The notes beneath the pieces were generated by a model. That model did not search any database. It saw only the letters and a list, made by a program, of their open reading frames with translations, and had not been told where the DNA came from. A program made the position numbers and the translations under genes. A DNA stretch of 21,614 nt from a virus: positions 1 to 21,614 of IMG/VR virus record IMGVR_UViG_3300017746_002716, one strand, 5' to 3'. Of the stretch, positions 6,601 to 14,475 are shown piece after piece. Every line of letters begins with the position of its first letter. The stretch's first letter is position 1.

Positions 6601-7236
6601 ATGAGCTTTGAAGCGATGAAATGGGCTAGTGGACAGCAGGCTGGCTCATCAACTAATAAACTTTTACTGCTTTTACTTGCTAACTACGCAGACCAAGACT
6701 ACAGTTGTTTCCCAAGCATCCGTAAACTAGCGGAGATGGCGGAGTGCTGTGAGTCAACAGTCAGACGATCACTGAAAGACTTGCGCGGACTTGGCTTGAT
6801 TGAGGTGCGCGAGAGATACGAAGCCTATGGCGATAAAAATAGGCAGACCTCCAATACCTATATACTCAAGGGGGGCTGTCAAATTGACACCCACCCCCCT
6901 GTCAAATCTACTACCCCGCCCCTGTCAAATATTGCAGGGCATATAACCAATCAGAATAACCAATCAGAATATACATCTACTTTTTTGGAGTTTTGGAAGG
7001 CTTACCCGCGCAGACCCAACTCATCTAAGAAGGATGCTTTTAAGAAATATAAAATAGCTTTACAAAAAATACCGCAGGCTAAACTATTAGAAGCAACAAT
7101 AAACTTTGCGAAAACACAAATTAACACAGACCCACAATACATACCGCATGCCTCAACATGGCTAAATCAAGAGAGATACATGGATGTATTAGAACAACCG
7201 AAACTCAAAACGAACAGGAATAGGATTGCAGGATGA
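6601..7236 (+). CDS. Phage replication initiator / helicase-loader-type protein (HTH + C-terminal DnaT/O-like domain)
   Basis: A 211-residue, two-domain protein. The N-terminal part is a winged helix (HTH_36-like): NKLLLLLLANYADQ at about 19-32, then CFPSIRKLAEMAECCESTVRRSL with the recognition helix, then LGLIEVRER. The low-complexity linker at about 91-125 carries the DNA repeats described below. The C-terminal part is FLEFWKAYPRRPNSSKKDAFKKY...YIPHASTWLNQERYMD, the pattern of phage replisome organisers that recruit the helicase. It plays the part of lambda O: bind the origin, load the helicase. The next gene, a primase-helicase, overlaps by 4 nt. AGGGAG precedes the ATG. Confidence 0.85.
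   Translation: MSFEAMKWASGQQAGSSTNKLLLLLLANYADQDYSCFPSIRKLAEMAECCESTVRRSLKDLRGLGLIEVRERYEAYGDKNRQTSNTYILKGGCQIDTHPPVKSTTPPLSNIAGHITNQNNQSEYTSTFLEFWKAYPRRPNSSKKDAFKKYKIALQKIPQAKLLEATINFAKTQINTDPQYIPHASTWLNQERYMDVLEQPKLKTNRNRIAG
6876..6930 (+). repeat. Three iteron-like repeats of CTGTCAAAT at exact 23-bp spacing
   Basis: CTGTCAAAT occurs at 6876-6884, 6899-6907 and 6922-6930, each start exactly 23 bp from the last. The second and third copies share a further CCCC in front. The first copy also forms the palindrome TGTCAA-A-TTGACA (6877-6889). The repeats lie in the unconserved linker of the initiator gene, as lambda iterons lie in O. Candidate initiator-binding sites. Confidence 0.7.
6944..6969 (+). 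repeat. Perfect tandem 13-mers (TAACCAATCAGAA x2), candidate DNA-unwinding element
   Basis: Two identical, directly adjacent copies of an AT-rich 13-mer (6944-6956 and 6957-6969) are followed by TATAC. They start 13 nt after the last iteron-like repeat. Iterons beside AT-rich 13-mers is the usual layout of initiator-dependent origins. Confidence 0.6.
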
Positions 7237-8939
7237 CACTTTACGAACAAGGGATAAAGCTTAACTCAAACAGCGTAGGAAACCATAAGACCACTTGCCC
7301 AGAATGCTCACATACTAGACGCAATAAACAAGACCTTTGCTTGTCTGTAAAAATTGACCCAGATGGCGGAGCGGTTTGGAAATGTCATAATTGCTCATGG
7401 GCTGGTAACATAGCAGGGGCAGGCTTTACCCCGACACCTAGACAGGTAAGAAAAATTACTTTGCCCGACGATCAAGAGCGAGACGATAAGTTTTACTCGT
7501 GGTTTGGCAAGCGCGGCATATCAAAGAAAACAGTAGATGCCTTTGGTATTTACAAAACCAAAATGTACTTTGGCAATGGAGAGGAAGCCTGTATTGCTTT
7601 TCCGTATCGGCATAATGGTGAACTCTACAACATAAAATATCGCACGGCAGACAAAAAGTTCCGCCAAGAAAAGGATGCCAGAAAACAATTCTATATGGCA
7701 GAGACTCTTGACCTACTTGAACAGGATGCCTTGATAATCGTTGAGGGCGAGTTGGACGTTCTTTCATTATACGAATGCGGCTTTTCAAATGTTATCAGCC
7801 TACCAGATGGCGCACCCAGCAAAGCAGAATACCGAGAGCAGGATAAACGCTTTGAGATACTGGCAAACCTTGAGGGGCATAAAGCAACTAAGATAATCAT
7901 AGCGGTAGATATGGACGATGCAGGGCAAGCCCTTGCCGATGAATTACAGCACAGATTTGGCAAGGATATATGTTGGCGGGTAGAATGGCCTGATATGCAT
8001 GATGTGACTTGCAAGGATGCCAATGAAACTCTGGTAACGCATGGCAAGGAAGTAGTCAAAGAATGTATAGATGCCGCAAAGCCAAACCCGATTGATGGTG
8101 TATTTACAGCACAGCAGTATCTAGGCGGCGTTCTTGACCTTTACTATGGCAGGACAGCCAAGCCACTATCAACAGGCTTTCCAGAACTAGATAAAATCTA
8201 TAGAATAATGCCTGCAACTTTTCACGTTATTACTGGCGTACCAAACCACGGCAAGTCTAACTTTCTTGACCAGCTTATCATCAATATGGCAGAGGGTCAC
8301 TTTTGGAAGGTTGGCATATTTAGCCCAGAACATTCGACACAGCAACACTTGCGCAGGCTTGTAGAAAAGCGGATGCGAAAACCCTTTGAGCATGGACCCA
8401 CTAGCCGCATGAGTGAGGCAGAAGTTCGACAGGGCATAGATTGGCTTAACGATCACTTTCACTTTATTGAAAGCGGTGATGAGATACCAACGATTGATTA
8501 CATACTTGACCGAGCCAAACAGATAAACTTGCGCTACGGCTTGGATGGCCTTGTCATTGACCCATTCAATAAGATTGATGCAACTAGAGATGGCGGCAAG
8601 CGAGAGGATGAGCATATCCGCGACCTGATTGCCAAATGCCAGAGGTTTGCCCAATACTACAACGTGACTGTCTGGATGGTGGCGCACCCTCACAAACTTT
8701 ACAGAACGGATGAGGGCATAATACCAGCCCCAGACCTTTACCAGATAGCAGGTTCGGCTCACTGGAATAACATGGCAGATGTCGGCATGGTTGTTCACCG
8801 AGACTTTGAGACCAATGAAACGCGAGTAATAATGAGAAAGATAAGAGAGCAAGATGTCTATGGTAATATAGGCGAATGCTACTTCACTTATAATACCACG
8901 ACCAGATGTTACGATGAGGTTGTGCAAGACACCGATTGA
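7233..8939 (+). CDS. Bifunctional primase-helicase (T7 gp4-like, TOPRIM + RecA-type DnaB helicase)
   Basis: A 568-residue protein with three regions. A zinc ribbon uses C22, C25, C51 and C54 (CPEC...CHNC). A TOPRIM domain has LIIVEGELDVLSLYE near 166-180 and IIIAVDMDDAGQALADEL near 222-239. A DnaB/RecA-type helicase has Walker A GVPNHGKS at about 335-342 and Walker B GLVIDPFNK at about 439-447, followed by VWMVAHPHK. It would unwind DNA at the fork and synthesise RNA primers, like T7 gp4. It overlaps the initiator gene by 4 nt (ATGA), so the two form one replication unit. All key motifs look intact. A long antisense open frame at 8187-9032 is a codon-usage shadow. Confidence 0.93.
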   Translation: MTLYEQGIKLNSNSVGNHKTTCPECSHTRRNKQDLCLSVKIDPDGGAVWKCHNCSWAGNIAGAGFTPTPRQVRKITLPDDQERDDKFYSWFGKRGISKKTVDAFGIYKTKMYFGNGEEACIAFPYRHNGELYNIKYRTADKKFRQEKDARKQFYMAETLDLLEQDALIIVEGELDVLSLYECGFSNVISLPDGAPSKAEYREQDKRFEILANLEGHKATKIIIAVDMDDAGQALADELQHRFGKDICWRVEWPDMHDVTCKDANETLVTHGKEVVKECIDAAKPNPIDGVFTAQQYLGGVLDLYYGRTAKPLSTGFPELDKIYRIMPATFHVITGVPNHGKSNFLDQLIINMAEGHFWKVGIFSPEHSTQQHLRRLVEKRMRKPFEHGPTSRMSEAEVRQGIDWLNDHFHFIESGDEIPTIDYILDRAKQINLRYGLDGLVIDPFNKIDATRDGGKREDEHIRDLIAKCQRFAQYYNVTVWMVAHPHKLYRTDEGIIPAPDLYQIAGSAHWNNMADVGMVVHRDFETNETRVIMRKIREQDVYGNIGECYFTYNTTTRCYDEVVQDTD

Positions 8940-9014: not shown

Positions 9015-9572
9015 ATGCAGACGGATAAGCAAATAGAAACTCGCCTAACGAGCGAACTCAAGCCATATAAAAAGAACTCGCGCACCCATAGCGACAAGCA
9101 AATAGAGCAAGTAGCAAACTCTATCAAAGAATGGGGATGGACAATTCCAATTTTAGTTGATGAAGAAAATACTGTATTAGCTGGACACGCTAGGCTGTAT
9201 GCCGCCGAGTATTTAGAATTACCAAAAGTGCCATGTGTTGTAGCGACAGGCTGGTCTGACGATCAAAAGAAAGCATATGTAATCGCAGATAATAAGCTGG
9301 CGGAAAATTCTGATTGGGACTTTGGTTTGTATTATACGGAACTCAAAGACCTTAACTCAGCAGGCTTTGACCTTTCGCTTACTGGATTGACAGAAAACTT
9401 TTCATTTGATTTTGAGCCAAATCTAAATCCAGAAACAACATATGAAGAAGTTACCAGTGTTGATATGAACAGCGCGGCGGAACGTGTTGGCAATGTAGGC
9501 GAAAGTTCAGTGAAAAAAACGAATGTGATTTGCCCCGAATGTGGTCACGATTTTGATTTTTTCGGTATTTAG
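9015..9572 (+). CDS. ParB/Srx-like domain protein with C-terminal zinc-knuckle
   Basis: 185 residues; AGGAG lies 7 nt before the ATG. Residues about 8-85 form a ParB/sulfiredoxin-type N-terminal domain: LKPYKKNSRTHSDKQIEQVANSIKEWG, then PILVDEENTVLAGHARLYAA with the G-H-x-R box, then VPCVV. A helical region follows (DDQKKAYVIADNKLAENSDW), then an acidic variable part, then CPECGHDFDF at the end (C173, C176). In phages this ParB unit with AYVIADNKLAE usually forms the N-terminus of, or neighbours, a DNA adenine methylase. Here the methylase domain is absent and six coupled genes follow. A DNA-binding or nucleotide-dependent role in a DNA-modification system is inferred; plasmid partition is unlikely, as there is no ParA. 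Confidence 0.8.
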   Translation: MQTDKQIETRLTSELKPYKKNSRTHSDKQIEQVANSIKEWGWTIPILVDEENTVLAGHARLYAAEYLELPKVPCVVATGWSDDQKKAYVIADNKLAENSDWDFGLYYTELKDLNSAGFDLSLTGLTENFSFDFEPNLNPETTYEEVTSVDMNSAAERVGNVGESSVKKTNVICPECGHDFDFFGI

Positions 9573-9869
9573 ATGAATATTGAAGACATAAAAATCAAGC
9601 TGGAATCAGCCAAATGGAAATATGCAAAAACAATGCCCCAGTGGCCGCACGACTATACCCTTAAAGAAACATGGGATAACCCTAATGAATTTATAGAGTT
9701 GTCAATTTACATAAATAAACATGGTAAAAACGAATTGTGGCATTACGAATGGAAGGGGGAAAAGCGTTCAAAACCAAGGATATATTTTTATTTAGGCAAA
9801 TATAAATATTGGATTATGGAAAAAGAGCCAAGCAAAGCAATTCTTATAAATAGAGCGGTGGTAGAATGA
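9573..9869 (+). CDS. Small protein of the modification-like operon (unknown)
   Basis: A 98-residue protein beginning directly after the preceding stop, with its stop overlapping the next ATG by 4 nt. Its features are KYAKTMPQWPHDYTLKETW near the N-terminus, a central KNELWHYEWKG, and IYFYLGKYKYWIMEKEPSKAILINRA at the C-terminus. The AKTMP..PH.YTL...YWIM...INRA pattern reminds me of a short domain found beside or fused to methyltransferases in bacteria, but I cannot confirm that from memory. It is basic and aromatic-rich. A partner or substrate-recognition role in the cassette is a guess. Confidence 0.65.
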   Translation: MNIEDIKIKLESAKWKYAKTMPQWPHDYTLKETWDNPNEFIELSIYINKHGKNELWHYEWKGEKRSKPRIYFYLGKYKYWIMEKEPSKAILINRAVVE

Positions 9870-10426
9870 AACTTATCATGCGTACTTGTATAGGGCGTGA
9901 GGATTATGCAGAATACATGCATAAAAATCTTGATGGTCTTATTGAAATTAAAGATGAAAAAAAAGACCCTGTTGGTTGTTTTCTAAGGGCATTAGAGGCG
10001 GCTGGCAATGAGGCGGCAATACATTTTGAAGATGACTGTATCTTGACACAAGACTTTTTGCCAAAAGCAGAAATGGTAATATCGCTTCATTCGGATAAGG
10101 TTATACAATTTTTTTCAATGCGTAAGGCTGATTTAGAGATAGGTTCTCGTATTGAAAATGGTTCATCATTCTTGGCGGCAGTGTGTTTTTATACACCCCC
10201 GAACATAAGCGCAGAAATGAGGGAGTTTTTTCCAACATGGGATAAGTGGAATGAGCATCCAACAGGTCTTGATTTGACTATTGCTGATTATCTAAAAGCA
10301 ACTAAACAAAAGTATTTTATTCAATGCCCAAATCTAGCCGACCATCGTATTGGCAAATCAGAAATAGACAGTAGGAGGTCAAGCAAAAGAATAAGCAAAA
10401 CATTTGTTGACCCAGTGTTGCCATAA
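9866..10426 (+). CDS. GT-A-fold glycosyltransferase-like protein
   Basis: A 186-residue protein. The N-terminus MKLIMRTCIGREDYAEYM... leads to a core with AAIHFEDDCILTQDFL at about 50-65. The E-D-D after a hydrophobic beta strand is the metal and nucleotide-sugar binding (DxD-type) motif of GT-A transferases such as the GT25-like group. Later come SSFLAAVCFYTPP, a GLDLTIADYL acidic helix typical of acceptor/catalytic loops, and CPNLADHRIGKSE. It is shorter than most GT25 enzymes (about 250), as are several phage DNA-base glycosyltransferases. Neighbours (ParB-like, 2OG/cupin-like, PP-loop) suggest a DNA base rather than a surface glycan as acceptor. Substrate and activity are inference. Confidence 0.62.
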   Translation: MKLIMRTCIGREDYAEYMHKNLDGLIEIKDEKKDPVGCFLRALEAAGNEAAIHFEDDCILTQDFLPKAEMVISLHSDKVIQFFSMRKADLEIGSRIENGSSFLAAVCFYTPPNISAEMREFFPTWDKWNEHPTGLDLTIADYLKATKQKYFIQCPNLADHRIGKSEIDSRRSSKRISKTFVDPVLP

Positions 10427-10957
10427 ATGGATGTAGGTTGGAATTATGAGATTAAAGACGATCAAAGAACAAATCCAGTTGTATTTGCTCAACATGTGAA
10501 TCTGCCAGATGATATAATTTTTCCAACAGAAGATATGTTAAAAAAAGTATTTAAAACAGAAAAATTTAAGGAAAGGGCGGGTAGGTTAAAAACATGGGGC
10601 AGACTTAAGGGCAGTGATGGCAAAATTGCCTATAAAGATAGTCCACATTGGATTGCTGTAAGAAATGGCACACCGCTTCATTTAGACCCGCCATATCCAA
10701 GATATAGTCATCATCTCAAAATCAGAGTTGATGAAGGTATGTTTGTAAGGGGCTTGGATAAAATAGAGATGCAGTTACATACAGGAACATTCTACATTTT
10801 AGATACACACAGTCCACATCAAGTTTTCAGCAAAAACCAGTTTGATAGCTGGAATGTAGCAATTTCTATTGATAGTGATAATAAATGGACTCCAGATAAA
10901 GCTATCCAAGCCTGTTTAGATTATGCCGCGAACAATGATTTTGTGAGGGCTACATGA
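10427..10957 (+). CDS. Divergent double-stranded beta-helix protein (2OG-oxygenase/cupin-like)
   Basis: A 176-residue protein whose ATG follows the previous stop with no gap. From about residue 75 it reads as a jelly-roll: HWIAVRNGTPLHLDPPYPRY, HHLKIRVDEG, GTFYILDTHSPHQVF, SWNVAISID. H85, D87 and H131 have the H-x-D...H spacing of a 2OG-Fe(II) or aspartyl-hydroxylase-like metal site. The arginine normally found about ten residues after the distal histidine is absent (the strand reads FDSWNVAISID), so cosubstrate binding may differ or the fold may be a cupin. It lies between a glycosyltransferase-like and a PP-loop gene and could oxidise a base or sugar. Moderately sure of the fold, not of the reaction. 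Confidence 0.55.
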   Translation: MDVGWNYEIKDDQRTNPVVFAQHVNLPDDIIFPTEDMLKKVFKTEKFKERAGRLKTWGRLKGSDGKIAYKDSPHWIAVRNGTPLHLDPPYPRYSHHLKIRVDEGMFVRGLDKIEMQLHTGTFYILDTHSPHQVFSKNQFDSWNVAISIDSDNKWTPDKAIQACLDYAANNDFVRAT

Positions 10958-12153
10958 AAATATATTCTAAAGATAATGTTTATAATGCGGCAAAAAAAAG
11001 AATAGCGCGGCTGTTTGAGGAGTTTCCAAATGTTGGTGTTTGGTCATCAGGCGGTAAAGATAGCACCGTAATTTTAAATTTGACGCTAGAGGTAGCGGAG
11101 GAACTAGGTAGGTTGCCAGTAACAGTTTGTTTTGTAGACCAAGAAGCTGAATGGCAGGCGGTTATAGACTACCAAAGAATTGTCGCCAATGATCCCAGAG
11201 TAAATATGCATTGGCTACAAGTTCCTATAAGGCTATTTAATGCAACATCTATGGATAGTCATTGGCTTAACTGCTGGGACGAGAATGAAGAATGGATGCG
11301 AGATAAAGAGCCTTACTCAATTCAAGAAAATATATACGGAACAGACCGCTTCTATCCAATATTTGGCAAATACTTGGAGCATCATTTTCCAAATGAAAAA
11401 ACTGCATTTCTTGGCGGTGTTCGTGCAGAGGAAAGCCCGAATAGAGCATCAGGACTTACTGTTGGCGCAACTTATAAAGATATAACCTACGGGAAAAAAC
11501 AGAACGAAAAGCAGGGGCATTATACATTTTACCCAATTTATGATTGGTCATACAGGGATGTATGGAAGGCAATTCACGATAACAAATGGGATTACTGCAA
11601 AATTTATGACCAATATTACAAGCATGGTATTAACCCAATAAAAATGCGGGTATCAAACCTGCACCATGAAACTGCCGTAGACCAGCTTTTTTATTTACAT
11701 GAGATGGAGGCGGAAACTTGGGGCAAGCTAACAAAACGCTTGCAGGGAATTAATCAAACGCATCATATGACTAGAATGGAGATGTATAAGGTAAAAGAAC
11801 TGCCATTTATGTTTAATACATGGAAAGAATACCGAGATTTTCTGGTTGAAAAACTTGTATCAGATGATGAGATAAAGAAGAAATTTAAGAAAAAATTTGC
11901 TTGGATGGATAACAAATACGAGGGAATGAATTTGTCACAAGAGAGGCACGATCAAGAAATAGCATGCATTTTGGCAAATGATTTTGAATTTACCAAATTG
12001 TCTAATTTTGAATCGCGTCCTGCATGTATTAATTTTTGGAAACATAAGCGCGGTAAGTCTTTAAATTGGGATAGAAGCGAGGGCGTACATTTGAAGTATA
12101 TTAGACCAGAGATAAGAGGCAAAGATTATGAGCCAGAACACACATCCAGTTAG
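10954..12153 (+). CDS. ibrA: IbrA-like PP-loop ATPase / PAPS-reductase-family protein (DUF3440-type)
   Basis: A 399-residue protein. The PP-loop SSGGKDSTVIL at 31-41 binds ATP. Then come CFVDQEAEW, a PAPS-reductase-type GGVRAEESPNRAS, FYPIYDWSYRDVWKAI...WDYCKIYDQYYKHGI, and MRVSNLHHETAVDQLFYL...ETWGKLTKRLQGIN, the layout of the DUF3440/IbrA family. The length is close to that of E. coli IbrA. The ECGIH redox signature of true PAPS reductases is not seen. IbrA with IbrB activates prophage-borne eib genes in E. coli, and related PP-loop enzymes (DndC) take part in DNA sulfur modification. Here it overlaps the previous gene by 4 nt and the ParB-like ibrB homologue by 26 nt, preserving the ibrAB pair. 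Biochemical activity unknown. Confidence 0.85.
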   Translation: MKIYSKDNVYNAAKKRIARLFEEFPNVGVWSSGGKDSTVILNLTLEVAEELGRLPVTVCFVDQEAEWQAVIDYQRIVANDPRVNMHWLQVPIRLFNATSMDSHWLNCWDENEEWMRDKEPYSIQENIYGTDRFYPIFGKYLEHHFPNEKTAFLGGVRAEESPNRASGLTVGATYKDITYGKKQNEKQGHYTFYPIYDWSYRDVWKAIHDNKWDYCKIYDQYYKHGINPIKMRVSNLHHETAVDQLFYLHEMEAETWGKLTKRLQGINQTHHMTRMEMYKVKELPFMFNTWKEYRDFLVEKLVSDDEIKKKFKKKFAWMDNKYEGMNLSQERHDQEIACILANDFEFTKLSNFESRPACINFWKHKRGKSLNWDRSEGVHLKYIRPEIRGKDYEPEHTSS

Positions 12154-12691
12154 CAATGTACAGTGGGTAGATGTCGACAAAGTAGAACCTAATGACTATA
12201 ACCCCAACTCAGTGGCGGGGCAGGAAATGAAGTTGCTATACACTTCAATCAAGCATGATGGATACACTCAGCCTATTGTTACAATCTACGATGAGGAAAA
12301 GGACAAATACGTTATTGTTGATGGGTTTCATAGATACTTTACCTGCAAGAATAACGCGGATATCCGAGAGGCTACAGGTAGCTGTGTTCCCGTTGTGGTA
12401 ATTAAGAAGGATATAAACGACCGCATGGCATCAACAGTTCGACATAACCGAGCCAGAGGGCGGCACAGTATAGATGGCATGAGTAATATGGTTTTTAGCT
12501 TGCTAGATAACGGATGGGCAGATGAGGATATTTGTAATCACTTAGGTATGGAACCCGATGAGTTATTGAGACTAAAACACATAACTGGGTTTAGTAAGCT
12601 TTTCGAGGATACAGAATACTCACAGGCTTGGGAATCAAGGCATCAAATATTGTTACGAAAAAAGATACAAGATGAGACTATTGAAAACTAA
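12128..12691 (+). CDS. ibrB: IbrB-like ParB/Srx-domain protein
   Basis: 187 residues, with GAGG 8 nt before the ATG, which lies inside the end of the IbrA-like gene. The ParB/Srx domain covers about 12-105: VDVDKVEPNDYNPN, LYTSIKHDGYTQPIV, YVIVDGFHRYFTC with the G-x-H-R box, VPVVVIKKDINDRMASTVRHNRARGRHSI. A C-terminal helical DNA-binding-like part follows (about 115-165: MVFSLLDNGWADEDICNHLGMEPDELLRLKHITG), as in ParB-like regulators and IbrB. Always-paired IbrA/IbrB genes occur in many phages and prophages. It shares its domain type with the 9015-9572 gene, so the operon is bracketed by ParB-like proteins. Role: DNA targeting or nucleotide-dependent catalysis for its PP-loop partner (inferred). 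Confidence 0.83.
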   Translation: MSQNTHPVSNVQWVDVDKVEPNDYNPNSVAGQEMKLLYTSIKHDGYTQPIVTIYDEEKDKYVIVDGFHRYFTCKNNADIREATGSCVPVVVIKKDINDRMASTVRHNRARGRHSIDGMSNMVFSLLDNGWADEDICNHLGMEPDELLRLKHITGFSKLFEDTEYSQAWESRHQILLRKKIQDETIEN

Positions 12692-12716: not shown

Positions 12717-13274
12717 ATGAGCAAAGGTGTCCCAGAATCTAAGTTTGTAAGAGCAAAGCGCGATTTCATTGAAGGCGTTATGCAGGGAGAAGTGCGTGAG
12801 TTTCTCAGCCTTGCTGATATAGGAAAACTCCACAGAATACCAAAAGCAACTCTGTATCGCAGGGCTAAAAAAGACGATTGGCAGGGCGATAAGAATAGAT
12901 TTCAAACAGATGTTGAACAACAGACTAATGAGACTAGGGCGGCAACTATTGCTAGTCAGGCGGCAGAGTTTGATAAGAATTGCCTACAGATAGCGCAGGG
13001 CTTGATGATCGAGGTGGGGCGCAAGATACAGCGCAGTCAGCAGGAGCAACGGACAGACCCAGACAGTGAGGGTTTGCCAGTATCATCACTTAGGGATATG
13101 AGCCACACATTAGCTAACGCTCAAAAAATTGGTAAACTCGCATTAGGTGAAGCACAAGAAATATCAAAGGTAGCGGCAGATGTCAGCATCCCAGACAGCT
13201 TTGGCGAACTCATCCGAGAACTGGACGAACTTGCCAACCAAAAAGCATCATTTGGTCAGCACACTTTACAGTGA
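12717..13274 (+). CDS. terS: Terminase small subunit-like protein
   Basis: A 185-residue protein. The N-terminal helix-turn-helix (FVRAKRDFIEGVMQGEVREF, then SLADIGKLHRIPKATLYRRAKKDDW) is typical of the DNA-recognition domain of small terminases. The helical middle (about 70-150) would form the oligomerisation ring, and the C-terminal acidic helix IPDSFGELIRELDELA would contact the large subunit. It lies directly before the large terminase. The ribosome site is weak and there are 25 nt between it and the IbrB-like gene, so it may be expressed from read-through. Identification rests on the HTH plus position; the sequences of small terminases diverge widely. Confidence 0.78.
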   Translation: MSKGVPESKFVRAKRDFIEGVMQGEVREFLSLADIGKLHRIPKATLYRRAKKDDWQGDKNRFQTDVEQQTNETRAATIASQAAEFDKNCLQIAQGLMIEVGRKIQRSQQEQRTDPDSEGLPVSSLRDMSHTLANAQKIGKLALGEAQEISKVAADVSIPDSFGELIRELDELANQKASFGQHTLQ

Positions 13275-14475
13275 TTGGATAAAGCAAGCACGACCCAGCC
13301 AAACACCCCTAGATGCTGATTGGAGTATCTGGCTTATACTTGCAGGCCGTGGTTTTGGTAAAACGCATACAGGAGCGCGATGGGCGGCTCTGTTTGCCCT
13401 ACAGAACCCCGAAGTTCAAGTTGCGGTAGTAACACCTACATTTGGAGATATCCGCCGTGTGGCCTTTGGTGGACCTTCTGGCATCATGTCATTTATACCG
13501 CCAGAGTTATTACTTAGTGGCAGGGGACAGGGTTATAACTCATCTGCCGCCGAGATACGCTTATTCAATGGCTCTAAGATTATGGGTTTCAGTGCCACCG
13601 AGCCTGATCGTTTGCGCGGACCTCAGTTTCATTATGCGTGGTGCGATGAGATAGCGGCATGGAGATACTCAGATACTTTTGACCAGCTTATGTTTGGATT
13701 GCGGTTGGGTAAGAACCCACAGTGTATAATCACAACAACCCCAAAACCAACACAGCTTGTTAAAAGCCTAGTCAAGCGCACCAACACACTGATTACAACA
13801 GGCTCAACATTTGAGAATGAAGAAAACCTAGCACCATCAGCAATCCAGCAATTACGAGAGAAATACGCCAATACCCGTTTAGGTAGGCAAGAACTTTATG
13901 CCGAGATACTTGACGAGAGCGAGGGCGCGCTTTGGAACTACAGCAATCTAGATGAGACACGTATAAAAAAAGAAGAAGTACCAGAGATGCAGAAGATTGT
14001 TGTCGGAATTGACCCAGCAGTTACAAGTGGGGATGACAGCGATGAAACAGGTATGATTGTGTGCGGTAAGGGGGTTGATGGCAGATACTATGTTCTTGAT
14101 GATCTCAGCCTTAGAGATACCCCCGATGGCTGGATGCGTAAGGCAGTGGGCGCATATTATAAATACAACGCCAATGTTATTATTGCAGAAACAAACAATG
14201 GTGGTGACCTTGTGCAAAGCCTCTTGAGAACAATAGATAAGGGTGTGCCATATCGCAAGGTTCACGCAAGCAGGGGCAAGCTAACAAGGGCGGAGCCTAT
14301 CGCGGCATTATATGAACAAAAAAAGGTGTCACATTGCGGAATATTTGCTAAGTTAGAAGAACAGTTATGTTTTTATACGGGAGATGACAAATCTCCTGAT
14401 AGATTGGATGCTCTAGTTTGGGCATTAACAGAGTTAAGCCGTTCAGACGGACAGGCTACTTGGAGAATTAGCTAA
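13180..14475 (+). CDS. terL: Terminase large subunit (packaging ATPase/nuclease)
   Basis: 431 residues if started at ATG 13180 (AAGG about 10 nt upstream), which overlaps the small-subunit gene by 95 nt. A TTG at 13252 would reduce the overlap to 23 nt, so the start is uncertain. The ATPase domain has Walker A AGRGFGKT (about 55-62) and Walker B YAWCDEIAAW (D156, E157), followed by the coupling segment IITTTPKPT. The RNase H-fold nuclease has VVGIDPAVTSGDD (D278), IIAETNNGGDLVQSLL, and DRLDALVWAL (D407, D410). It resembles the GTA/HK97-like large terminases of alphaproteobacterial phages. It pumps DNA into the prohead and cuts the concatemer. TAATG joins it to the portal gene. Confidence 0.94.
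   Translation: MSASQTALANSSENWTNLPTKKHHLVSTLYSDWIKQARPSQTPLDADWSIWLILAGRGFGKTHTGARWAALFALQNPEVQVAVVTPTFGDIRRVAFGGPSGIMSFIPPELLLSGRGQGYNSSAAEIRLFNGSKIMGFSATEPDRLRGPQFHYAWCDEIAAWRYSDTFDQLMFGLRLGKNPQCIITTTPKPTQLVKSLVKRTNTLITTGSTFENEENLAPSAIQQLREKYANTRLGRQELYAEILDESEGALWNYSNLDETRIKKEEVPEMQKIVVGIDPAVTSGDDSDETGMIVCGKGVDGRYYVLDDLSLRDTPDGWMRKAVGAYYKYNANVIIAETNNGGDLVQSLLRTIDKGVPYRKVHASRGKLTRAEPIAALYEQKKVSHCGIFAKLEEQLCFYTGDDKSPDRLDALVWALTELSRSDGQATWRIS

Follow-up and report, generated by a model that had tools for sequence, protein, structure and literature searches.

What do IbrA and IbrB, a pair known as prophage co-activators in E. coli, do in a phage genome where they close an operon of putative enzymes? 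We addressed this question for the operon at 9015-12691 of the IMG/VR record IMGVR_UViG_3300017746_002716; the window is this entire record of 21.6 kb (21,614 nucleotides, nt), probably a genome fragment, and labels such as L172 denote the loci and contigs with which it was compared. The operon consists of six tightly coupled + strand open reading frames, joined in order by a gap of 0, an overlap of 4, a gap of 0, an overlap of 4 and an overlap of 26 nt, and the layout given in an earlier note made from the sequence alone matches ours exactly in coordinates, gaps and overlaps:

9015-9572, + strand: ParB1, a ParB/Srx N-terminal domain with a C-terminal CPxC
9573-9869, + strand: sm98 (gap 0 to ParB1), a domain of 98 amino acids (aa) with no library match
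9866-10426, + strand: GT (overlap of 4 nt with sm98), a predicted GT-A-fold glycosyltransferase
10427-10957, + strand: cup (gap 0 to GT), a jelly-roll protein resembling Fe(II)/2-oxoglutarate (2OG) oxygenases
10954-12153, + strand: IbrA (overlap of 4 nt with cup), a PP-loop ATPase with DUF3440
12128-12691, + strand: IbrB (overlap of 26 nt with IbrA), a ParB/sulfiredoxin-fold protein

We put the probability that this operon is a phage DNA-hypermodification cassette with IbrA-IbrB (IbrAB) as its core at roughly three in four, and phage DNA is the probable target. Co-occurrence of the genes had been set beforehand as the test on which this idea could fail, and the genes do co-occur. We scanned IMG/VR with GT, IbrB and sm98, obtaining ~140 loci. 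IbrA or IbrB is present in 58 of the 62 viral loci found with GT, and in the remaining four the gene lies within ~1 kb of a contig end. The IbrB-query set comprised the best 80 of at least 600 matches, so that the rule on tailoring enzymes applies to that clade rather than to all IbrAB; its 44 usable loci (nonredundant, carrying both genes and 2.5 kb or more of upstream sequence) contained at least one tailoring enzyme in 43/44, ParB1 in 43/44 and sm98 in 37/44. All six viral loci found in the sm98 search carry IbrA and/or IbrB, and in INPHARED the IbrA and IbrB genes occur together in ~215-219 phages. Homologous loci also repeat the overlaps between sm98 and GT (32/32), cup and IbrA (26/29) and IbrA and IbrB (90/96), with GT and cup within 20 nt of each other in 32/32. 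Because this gene order recurs with its overlaps, the operon is not a chance arrangement.

The constant frame of these loci is ParB1, usually sm98, IbrA and IbrB, and the tailoring enzymes are exchangeable; the earlier idea of a six-gene set was right that the genes co-occur and wrong if taken to mean a fixed system. The interval from ParB1/sm98 to IbrA holds the 2OG-type oxygenase, GNAT acetyltransferases (PF00583, E-value (E) 9e-12), S-adenosylmethionine (AdoMet, SAM) decarboxylases (PF02675, E 5e-11), two groups of DPPW-type DNA N6/N4-methylases (PF01555; two scanned members above cut-off), class I methyltransferases, an NNMT-type amine methyltransferase and GT2-type transferases, with a nucleotide-sugar (GalE-type) epimerase adjoining GT once (L089, E 1e-44). 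Fusions link such enzymes to the core itself: a GT2-type transferase is fused to IbrA in L149, and an ectoine-synthase-like cupin (EctC) is fused to IbrB in Mycobacterium phage Gaia (L002 5608-6507) and lies separately beside IbrB in Pseudoalteromonas phage XCL1123 (order IbrA-EctC-IbrB; L001 5607-5999; PF06339, E 2e-35). An osmolyte role for this cupin seems unlikely. Microbacterium phage Hendrix combines two GT genes, a methyltransferase, a GNAT gene and IbrA. One divergent cassette contains a 287-aa protein with no Pfam match between a methylase and IbrA (L033 8154-9017).

Tailoring type changed at least 36 times on a 94-row IbrA tree, and some exchanges can be seen directly. In three pairs of near-identical phages the stretch from ParB1/sm98 to IbrA is the sole difference, and the alignment resumes a few nt from the IbrA start: L035 has sm98-GT-oxygenase versus two methylases in L082 (IbrA 99%, IbrB 100%), L088 has GT-oxygenase versus sm98-GT-methylase in L090 (IbrA 99%, IbrB 98%), and L047 has GT-oxygenase versus GNAT-methylase in L138 (IbrA 99%). 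What stays constant is the IbrA-IbrB core, what changes is its decoration, and the cassette is almost certainly conserved and modular.

The strongest evidence for function is the equivalence of the genomic slot that the cassette occupies with slots in related phages. In the window this slot is bordered by the following genes:

7233-8939: a DnaB-type primase-helicase gene, the upstream border of the operon
12717-13274, + strand: a terminase small subunit (weak match, phrog_1206, E 4e-4)
13180-14475, + strand: the terminase large subunit (TerL), which together with the small subunit (12717-14475) forms the downstream border of the slot

In 48 cassette loci a TerL homologue is encoded no more than 3 kb downstream. 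In L172, which belongs to the window's own lineage (TerL 62% and portal 63% identical), the slot between ParB1 and TerL encodes Tet_JBP (E 3e-23), N6_N4_Mtase (E 8e-12), the amino acid:DNA transferase ADDT (E 5e-13) and a P-loop kinase, which on these family matches is the known thymidine-hypermodification set. The ParB1 preceding this module is 44% identical to that of the window, and IbrA is absent from all 40 kb of L172. Conversely, neither Tet_JBP nor ADDT was found in any of 25 IbrAB-cassette records, many of which may be incomplete, with L172 serving as the positive; thymidylate synthase, which would indicate a hydroxymethyl-nucleotide route, was likewise found in 0/25 of these possibly incomplete records.

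The same replacement is seen in the Bclasvirinae (cluster B mycobacteriophages), a group unrelated to the window lineage, and in a Gordonia relative, where this interval is bordered by orthologues of ParB (42-50%), TerL (52-63%), RuvC and the portal gene. Athena carries ParB-x-x-IbrA-IbrB; LizLemon carries DpdA-QueC-QueD-QueE-FolE and Funsized the same genes plus QueF; Lolalove carries Tet_JBP-ADDT-kinase, its Tet_JBP match (E 5.5e-6) falling below the curated cut-off; Suffolk carries only a kinase; and Gordonia phage NHagos (L164 1-2473) carries genes for a formyltransferase-like and an ABC-ATPase/GNAT protein, perhaps a further DNA-modification module not yet described. Among these six phages IbrA is found in Athena only. 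DNA of Rosebush, for which LizLemon stands in as a member of the same species, contains dPreQ0 by liquid chromatography-mass spectrometry (PMC6884629). A Pfam TGT search gave no match anywhere, even in LizLemon, where a queuine tRNA-ribosyltransferase (DpdA) is annotated, and as a test without power it was not used. The cassette thus sits where relatives carry proven or recognised DNA-modification modules, and two independent phage groups exchange IbrAB for such modules behind the same ParB companion. Fusobacterium phage phiFN37 has a second ParB beside queuine transglycosylase and queuosine-transporter genes (L005 8454-10489) ~3 kb from its IbrAB, and 7-deazaguanine-type and IbrAB modules can therefore coexist.

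An interval that exchanges its contents so readily could also be a hotspot, gathering unrelated accessory genes that are each protective alone and share no pathway, and the many phages with IbrAB and neither GT nor oxygenase, like the free exchange of tailoring genes, fit that description. We nonetheless consider it improbable in view of the near-universal coupling within the clade (43/44), the fusions across partners and the strict gene order with overlaps. Matches to tailoring families also number 274 in 503 kb near IbrAB versus 6 in 516 kb of flanking DNA, a comparison that is partly circular because the profiles were partly trained on cassette members.

The core pair itself belongs to recognisable families. 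IbrA matches PF01507 (E 3e-16) and PF11922 (DUF3440, E 2e-9), both above cut-off, as well as phrog_2302 (E 1e-79), and its SGGKDS motif (residues 32-37, nt 11047-11064) is 99-100% conserved per position in 113 homologue rows. By profile, the solved structures closest to it are CysD (1zun, E 3.5e-9) and FAD synthase (E 6e-7), which assigns it by homology to the branch of PP-loop proteins containing 3'-phosphoadenosine-5'-phosphosulfate (PAPS) reductase, CysD and FAD synthase. ATP sulfurylase CysD and FAD synthase are adenylyl-transferring enzymes, and we propose that IbrA is the adenylating core enzyme. IbrB matches PF02195 (E 3e-6, above cut-off) and phrog_2159 (E 1.5e-75), and its profile relatives Noc (7ol9, E 6e-8), SbnI (5uje, E 5e-4) and SerK (NCBIfam, E 3e-4) indicate kinship with CTP-binding ParB/Noc proteins and SerK/SbnI serine kinases. 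Its motifs YNPN, DGFHR (nt 12320-12334; DGxHR in the family) and RHNRARG (nt 12440-12460) are conserved across 125 rows, and we propose that it is a nucleotide-using or DNA-targeting partner of IbrA. These families and motifs bear out the earlier description of an IbrA-like PP-loop ATPase and an IbrB-like ParB protein. The pair has the composition that defines IbrAB/YbdNM, namely a PP-loop PAPS-reductase-like domain with DUF3440 adjoining a ParB/Srx-domain protein, and IbrA/IbrB of E. coli prophages and YbdN/YbdM of E. coli K-12 are the same adjacent pair from the same families (PF01507+DUF3440, ParB). In E. coli, however, these proteins are named as transcription co-activators or are unknowns, without tailoring enzymes, whereas here the pair anchors an enzyme cassette.

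Membership of IbrA in the PAPS-reductase/DndC superfamily raises the alternative of a sulfur-based modification, in which IbrA, like DndC or TtcA, would place sulfur on a base or in the backbone, to be decorated by the remaining enzymes. IbrA does match DndC weakly (TIGR03183, E 1e-5; PADLOC DndC, E 4e-7), and Dnd phosphorothioation (DndBCDE) likewise pairs a PP-loop enzyme of this superfamily with a ParB-superfamily partner, DndB (PMC10853773). However, DndC needs a cysteine dyad (PMC10853773), and IbrA has no conserved cysteine, the best Cys column reaching 64% in the 113 rows; its DndC score is 24.7 bits versus a cut-off of 290.4. No cysteine desulfurase, DndD or DndE was recognised among the six operon genes or the scanned variable genes, though no search was aimed at them, and N- or O-modifying classes account for several of the tailoring enzymes. 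Identification as a PAPS reductase (CysH) was rejected as well, since the conserved C-terminal Cys (ECGxH) is missing and curated CysH models score far below cut-off. Neither a PAPS-reductase nor a DndC role is supported, and the sulfur-bearing base that the earlier note had allowed for is disfavoured because IbrA lacks conserved cysteines; we regard sulfur chemistry as unlikely. The IbrA family phrog_2302 (window 10954-12153) is labelled 'PAPS reductase, auxiliary metabolic gene' despite having no conserved cysteine, and claims about sulfur metabolism built on that label need checking.

GT, cup and sm98 have no significant Pfam match, and because PDB sequence profiles also returned nothing significant for GT or cup, we turned to structure prediction. 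The AlphaFold2 model of GT (predicted local distance difference test, pLDDT, 95.6) found Mimivirus R655, GnT-I, POMGnT1 and the collagen galactosyltransferase COLGALT1 as its top Foldseek matches (E 3e-5 to 1e-3), and GT also matches the glucosyltransferase family phrog_854 (E 4e-5). The predicted model combines a GT-A fold with an acidic metal motif (EDD at 55-57), D136 and a distal H160, and D57, D136 and H160 are kept in 94-98% of 85 rows; comparison of the GT alignment with GTDB genomes gave no confirmed relatives. For cup, the model (pLDDT 96.1) matched L-proline cis-4-hydroxylase (E 2.4e-4), proline 3-hydroxylase, AspH, the nucleoside-antibiotic hydroxylase 7v4f and general cupins. Its HxD (H85, D87; nt 10679-10687) and H131 (nt 10817-10819) are present in 100% of 42 rows, which together with the jelly roll is the hallmark of the Fe(II)/2OG oxygenase fold, and an invariant R92 is a candidate 2OG-binding Arg. 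Fold and residues in both proteins agree with what had been read from motifs alone, a GT-A-like transferase and an H-x-D...H jelly-roll protein. Used as a query by itself, cup gave 0 matches in INPHARED (tblastn) and in a single-sequence scan of IMG/VR; only the searches that started from GT or IbrB led to its relatives. Far from the cassette, the window encodes another protein of 2OG-Fe(II) oxygenase type (1249-1824, - strand; PF13640, E 1e-13).

GT-A enzymes, GNAT proteins, cupins and the GalE-type epimerase of L089 are also typical of polysaccharide clusters, and the operon might instead tailor a surface or virion glycan or a sugar nucleotide (for the host envelope or tail proteins), with IbrAB there by chance or as a regulator. 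This seems quite unlikely: overlaps and fusions bind the tailoring enzymes to IbrA and IbrB, the cassette has replication genes on one side and terminase genes on the other and is not placed among tail genes, DNA N6/N4-methylase-type enzymes occur in the same slot, and known DNA-modification modules replace the cassette as a whole.

The two proteins at the head of the operon are ParB1 and sm98. ParB1 matches PHROG 620 (E 4.6e-52), the ParB-methyltransferase (MTase) fusion family phrog_498 (E 2.2e-44), in which its family occurs fused to DNA methyltransferases, and the N-terminus of PADLOC MTase_II (E 2.4e-31). Its CPxC cysteines are kept in 97% and 95% of 103 rows, so the zinc knuckle previously suggested is conserved as far as it goes, although a CPxC pair amounts to no more than half a zinc ribbon. 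We propose that ParB1 is a DNA-binding or NTPase companion common to several phage DNA-modification modules. The sm98 domain (AKTMP..PH.Y ... KYW.M ... INRA) has no match in Pfam, NCBIfam or PADLOC and is fused to a SAM methyltransferase in 12 proteins and to AdoMet decarboxylase (AdoMetDC) in three; the hidden Markov model for sm98 was built on the domain alone, as an iterative model including the sm98+MTase fusions drifts into methyltransferases. We propose a substrate-recruiting role for sm98. The AdoMetDC+sm98 fusions (L084 4315-4992, L104 3181-3840, L086 3736-4380) suggest that in some cassettes decarboxylated SAM donates an aminopropyl group.

How might such a cassette work? IbrA would use ATP to adenylate a base-linked oxygen or acid, on the DNA base or a moiety it carries, and would then couple a small, probably amine-bearing, group, with IbrB and ParB1 acting as nucleotide-using and/or DNA-targeting partners. 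In the window phage the added group, or the base, would be a substrate for hydroxylation by the 2OG-Fe oxygenase and for glycosylation by the GT-A enzyme; other phages may acetylate, methylate or aminopropylate in place of these steps. The finished modification would protect the genome against host nucleases ahead of packaging. An N-linked adduct appears more likely than sulfur because IbrA lacks conserved cysteines and the tailoring classes include amine-acting ones (GNAT, NNMT type, amino-methylases, AdoMet decarboxylase and the ectoine-synthase-like cupin). That the window product is both hydroxylated and glycosylated is a tentative suggestion, and that IbrA adenylates and makes an N-linked adduct is somewhat doubtful. 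Since no thymidylate-synthase family gene occurs in the 25 records, many of them possibly incomplete, modification after replication is favoured. A precedent for such chemistry is phage CmoY, an asparagine-synthetase homologue (AMP-forming ligase) that joins glycine to 5-carboxymethylcytosine in DNA; many of the CmoY-carrying contigs also encode ParBc proteins (PMC12783734).

Several points weigh against a DNA-hypermodification cassette. The slot argument is positional, and other kinds of accessory genes could sit there. The jelly roll could be a non-2OG cupin, because its Foldseek TM-scores reach only modest values (0.37-0.49) and there is no obvious 2OG-binding Arg ~10 residues past the distal His (H131). 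In the more distant IbrAB phages of Streptococcus and Flavobacterium these tailoring enzymes are missing and an SNF2-type helicase takes their place, and the sole reported role of IbrA/IbrB is regulatory, as co-activators of prophage eib genes. Co-occurrence and slot comparison support the DNA-modification part of the earlier reading, while the modified base itself in IbrAB phages is one that we infer. SNF2/ResIII-type helicases stand beside IbrAB, in place of tailoring enzymes, in phages of Streptococcus, Flavobacterium, Fusobacterium and Microcystis (L158 2527-3762, L159 3785-4996, L005 5862-7058, L006 2806-4215), which points to a nucleic-acid substrate. That IbrA and IbrB are transcriptional co-activators, with the enzymes making a signal or modifying a protein, is highly improbable despite their historical name and phenotype in E. 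coli prophages (as cited in PMC4541368) and the place of E. coli ybdNM within a CitR-regulated operon (PMC9068703), given intact and invariant PP-loop and ParB nucleotide motifs, an enzyme-rich, fast-swapping neighbourhood atypical of a regulator, and the fact that DNA modification could itself alter transcription and so accommodate the old phenotype.

If the operon is a DNA-hypermodification cassette, it differs from the systems it most resembles. Thymidine hypermodification (TET/JBP hydroxylase, 5-hydroxymethyluracil DNA kinase and amino acid:DNA transferase) occupies the same ParB-TerL slot in L172 and Lolalove and also uses modular decoration enzymes, whereas the core here is a PP-loop protein with a ParB/Srx protein, and TET/JBP, ADDT and thymidylate synthase are missing from the 25 records. 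The dPreQ0/dG+ (DpdA) modification shares the slot and the ParB companion in the sister mycobacteriophages LizLemon and Funsized, but has other chemistry and enzymes, and IbrA is absent from both genomes. CmoA-CmoX-CmoY is likewise a phage operon, often with ParBc, in which an AMP-forming ligase completes a base modification (PMC12783734); CmoY is asparagine-synthetase-like, in contrast to the PAPS-reductase/CysD branch of IbrA. The literature we covered contains no proposal of IbrAB as a DNA-modification system, and as two papers about base modification in phages (Iyer 2013, Lee 2022) were outside it, a prior mention is possible.

There is an even chance that IbrA-IbrB is the core of an undescribed class of DNA hypermodification, built on PP-loop adenylation and a ParB/Srx partner, in phages of many host phyla, with marine and actinobacterial phages swapping the tailoring gene (hydroxylase, GT, GNAT, amino-methylase, AdoMet decarboxylase or EctC) so that near-identical phages gain different DNA 'chemotypes'. 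IbrA and IbrB, present in hundreds of sequenced phages, have stood for two decades under a misleading name (prophage co-activators) or a metabolic label (PAPS reductase), and slot replacement together with tailoring swaps leads to the testable claim that the DNA of IbrAB phages contains an unknown modified base. Should this hold, it would be a new core chemistry for phage DNA modification and a source of new DNA-modifying enzymes, and it would correct the view of the IbrA family as a viral sulfur-metabolism gene. DNA-decoration modules would be exchanged between otherwise near-identical phages, which is relevant to restriction evasion, and cellular YbdNM would likewise be enzymes that modify DNA or nucleotides, so that the old co-activator phenotype of IbrAB would have an explanation.

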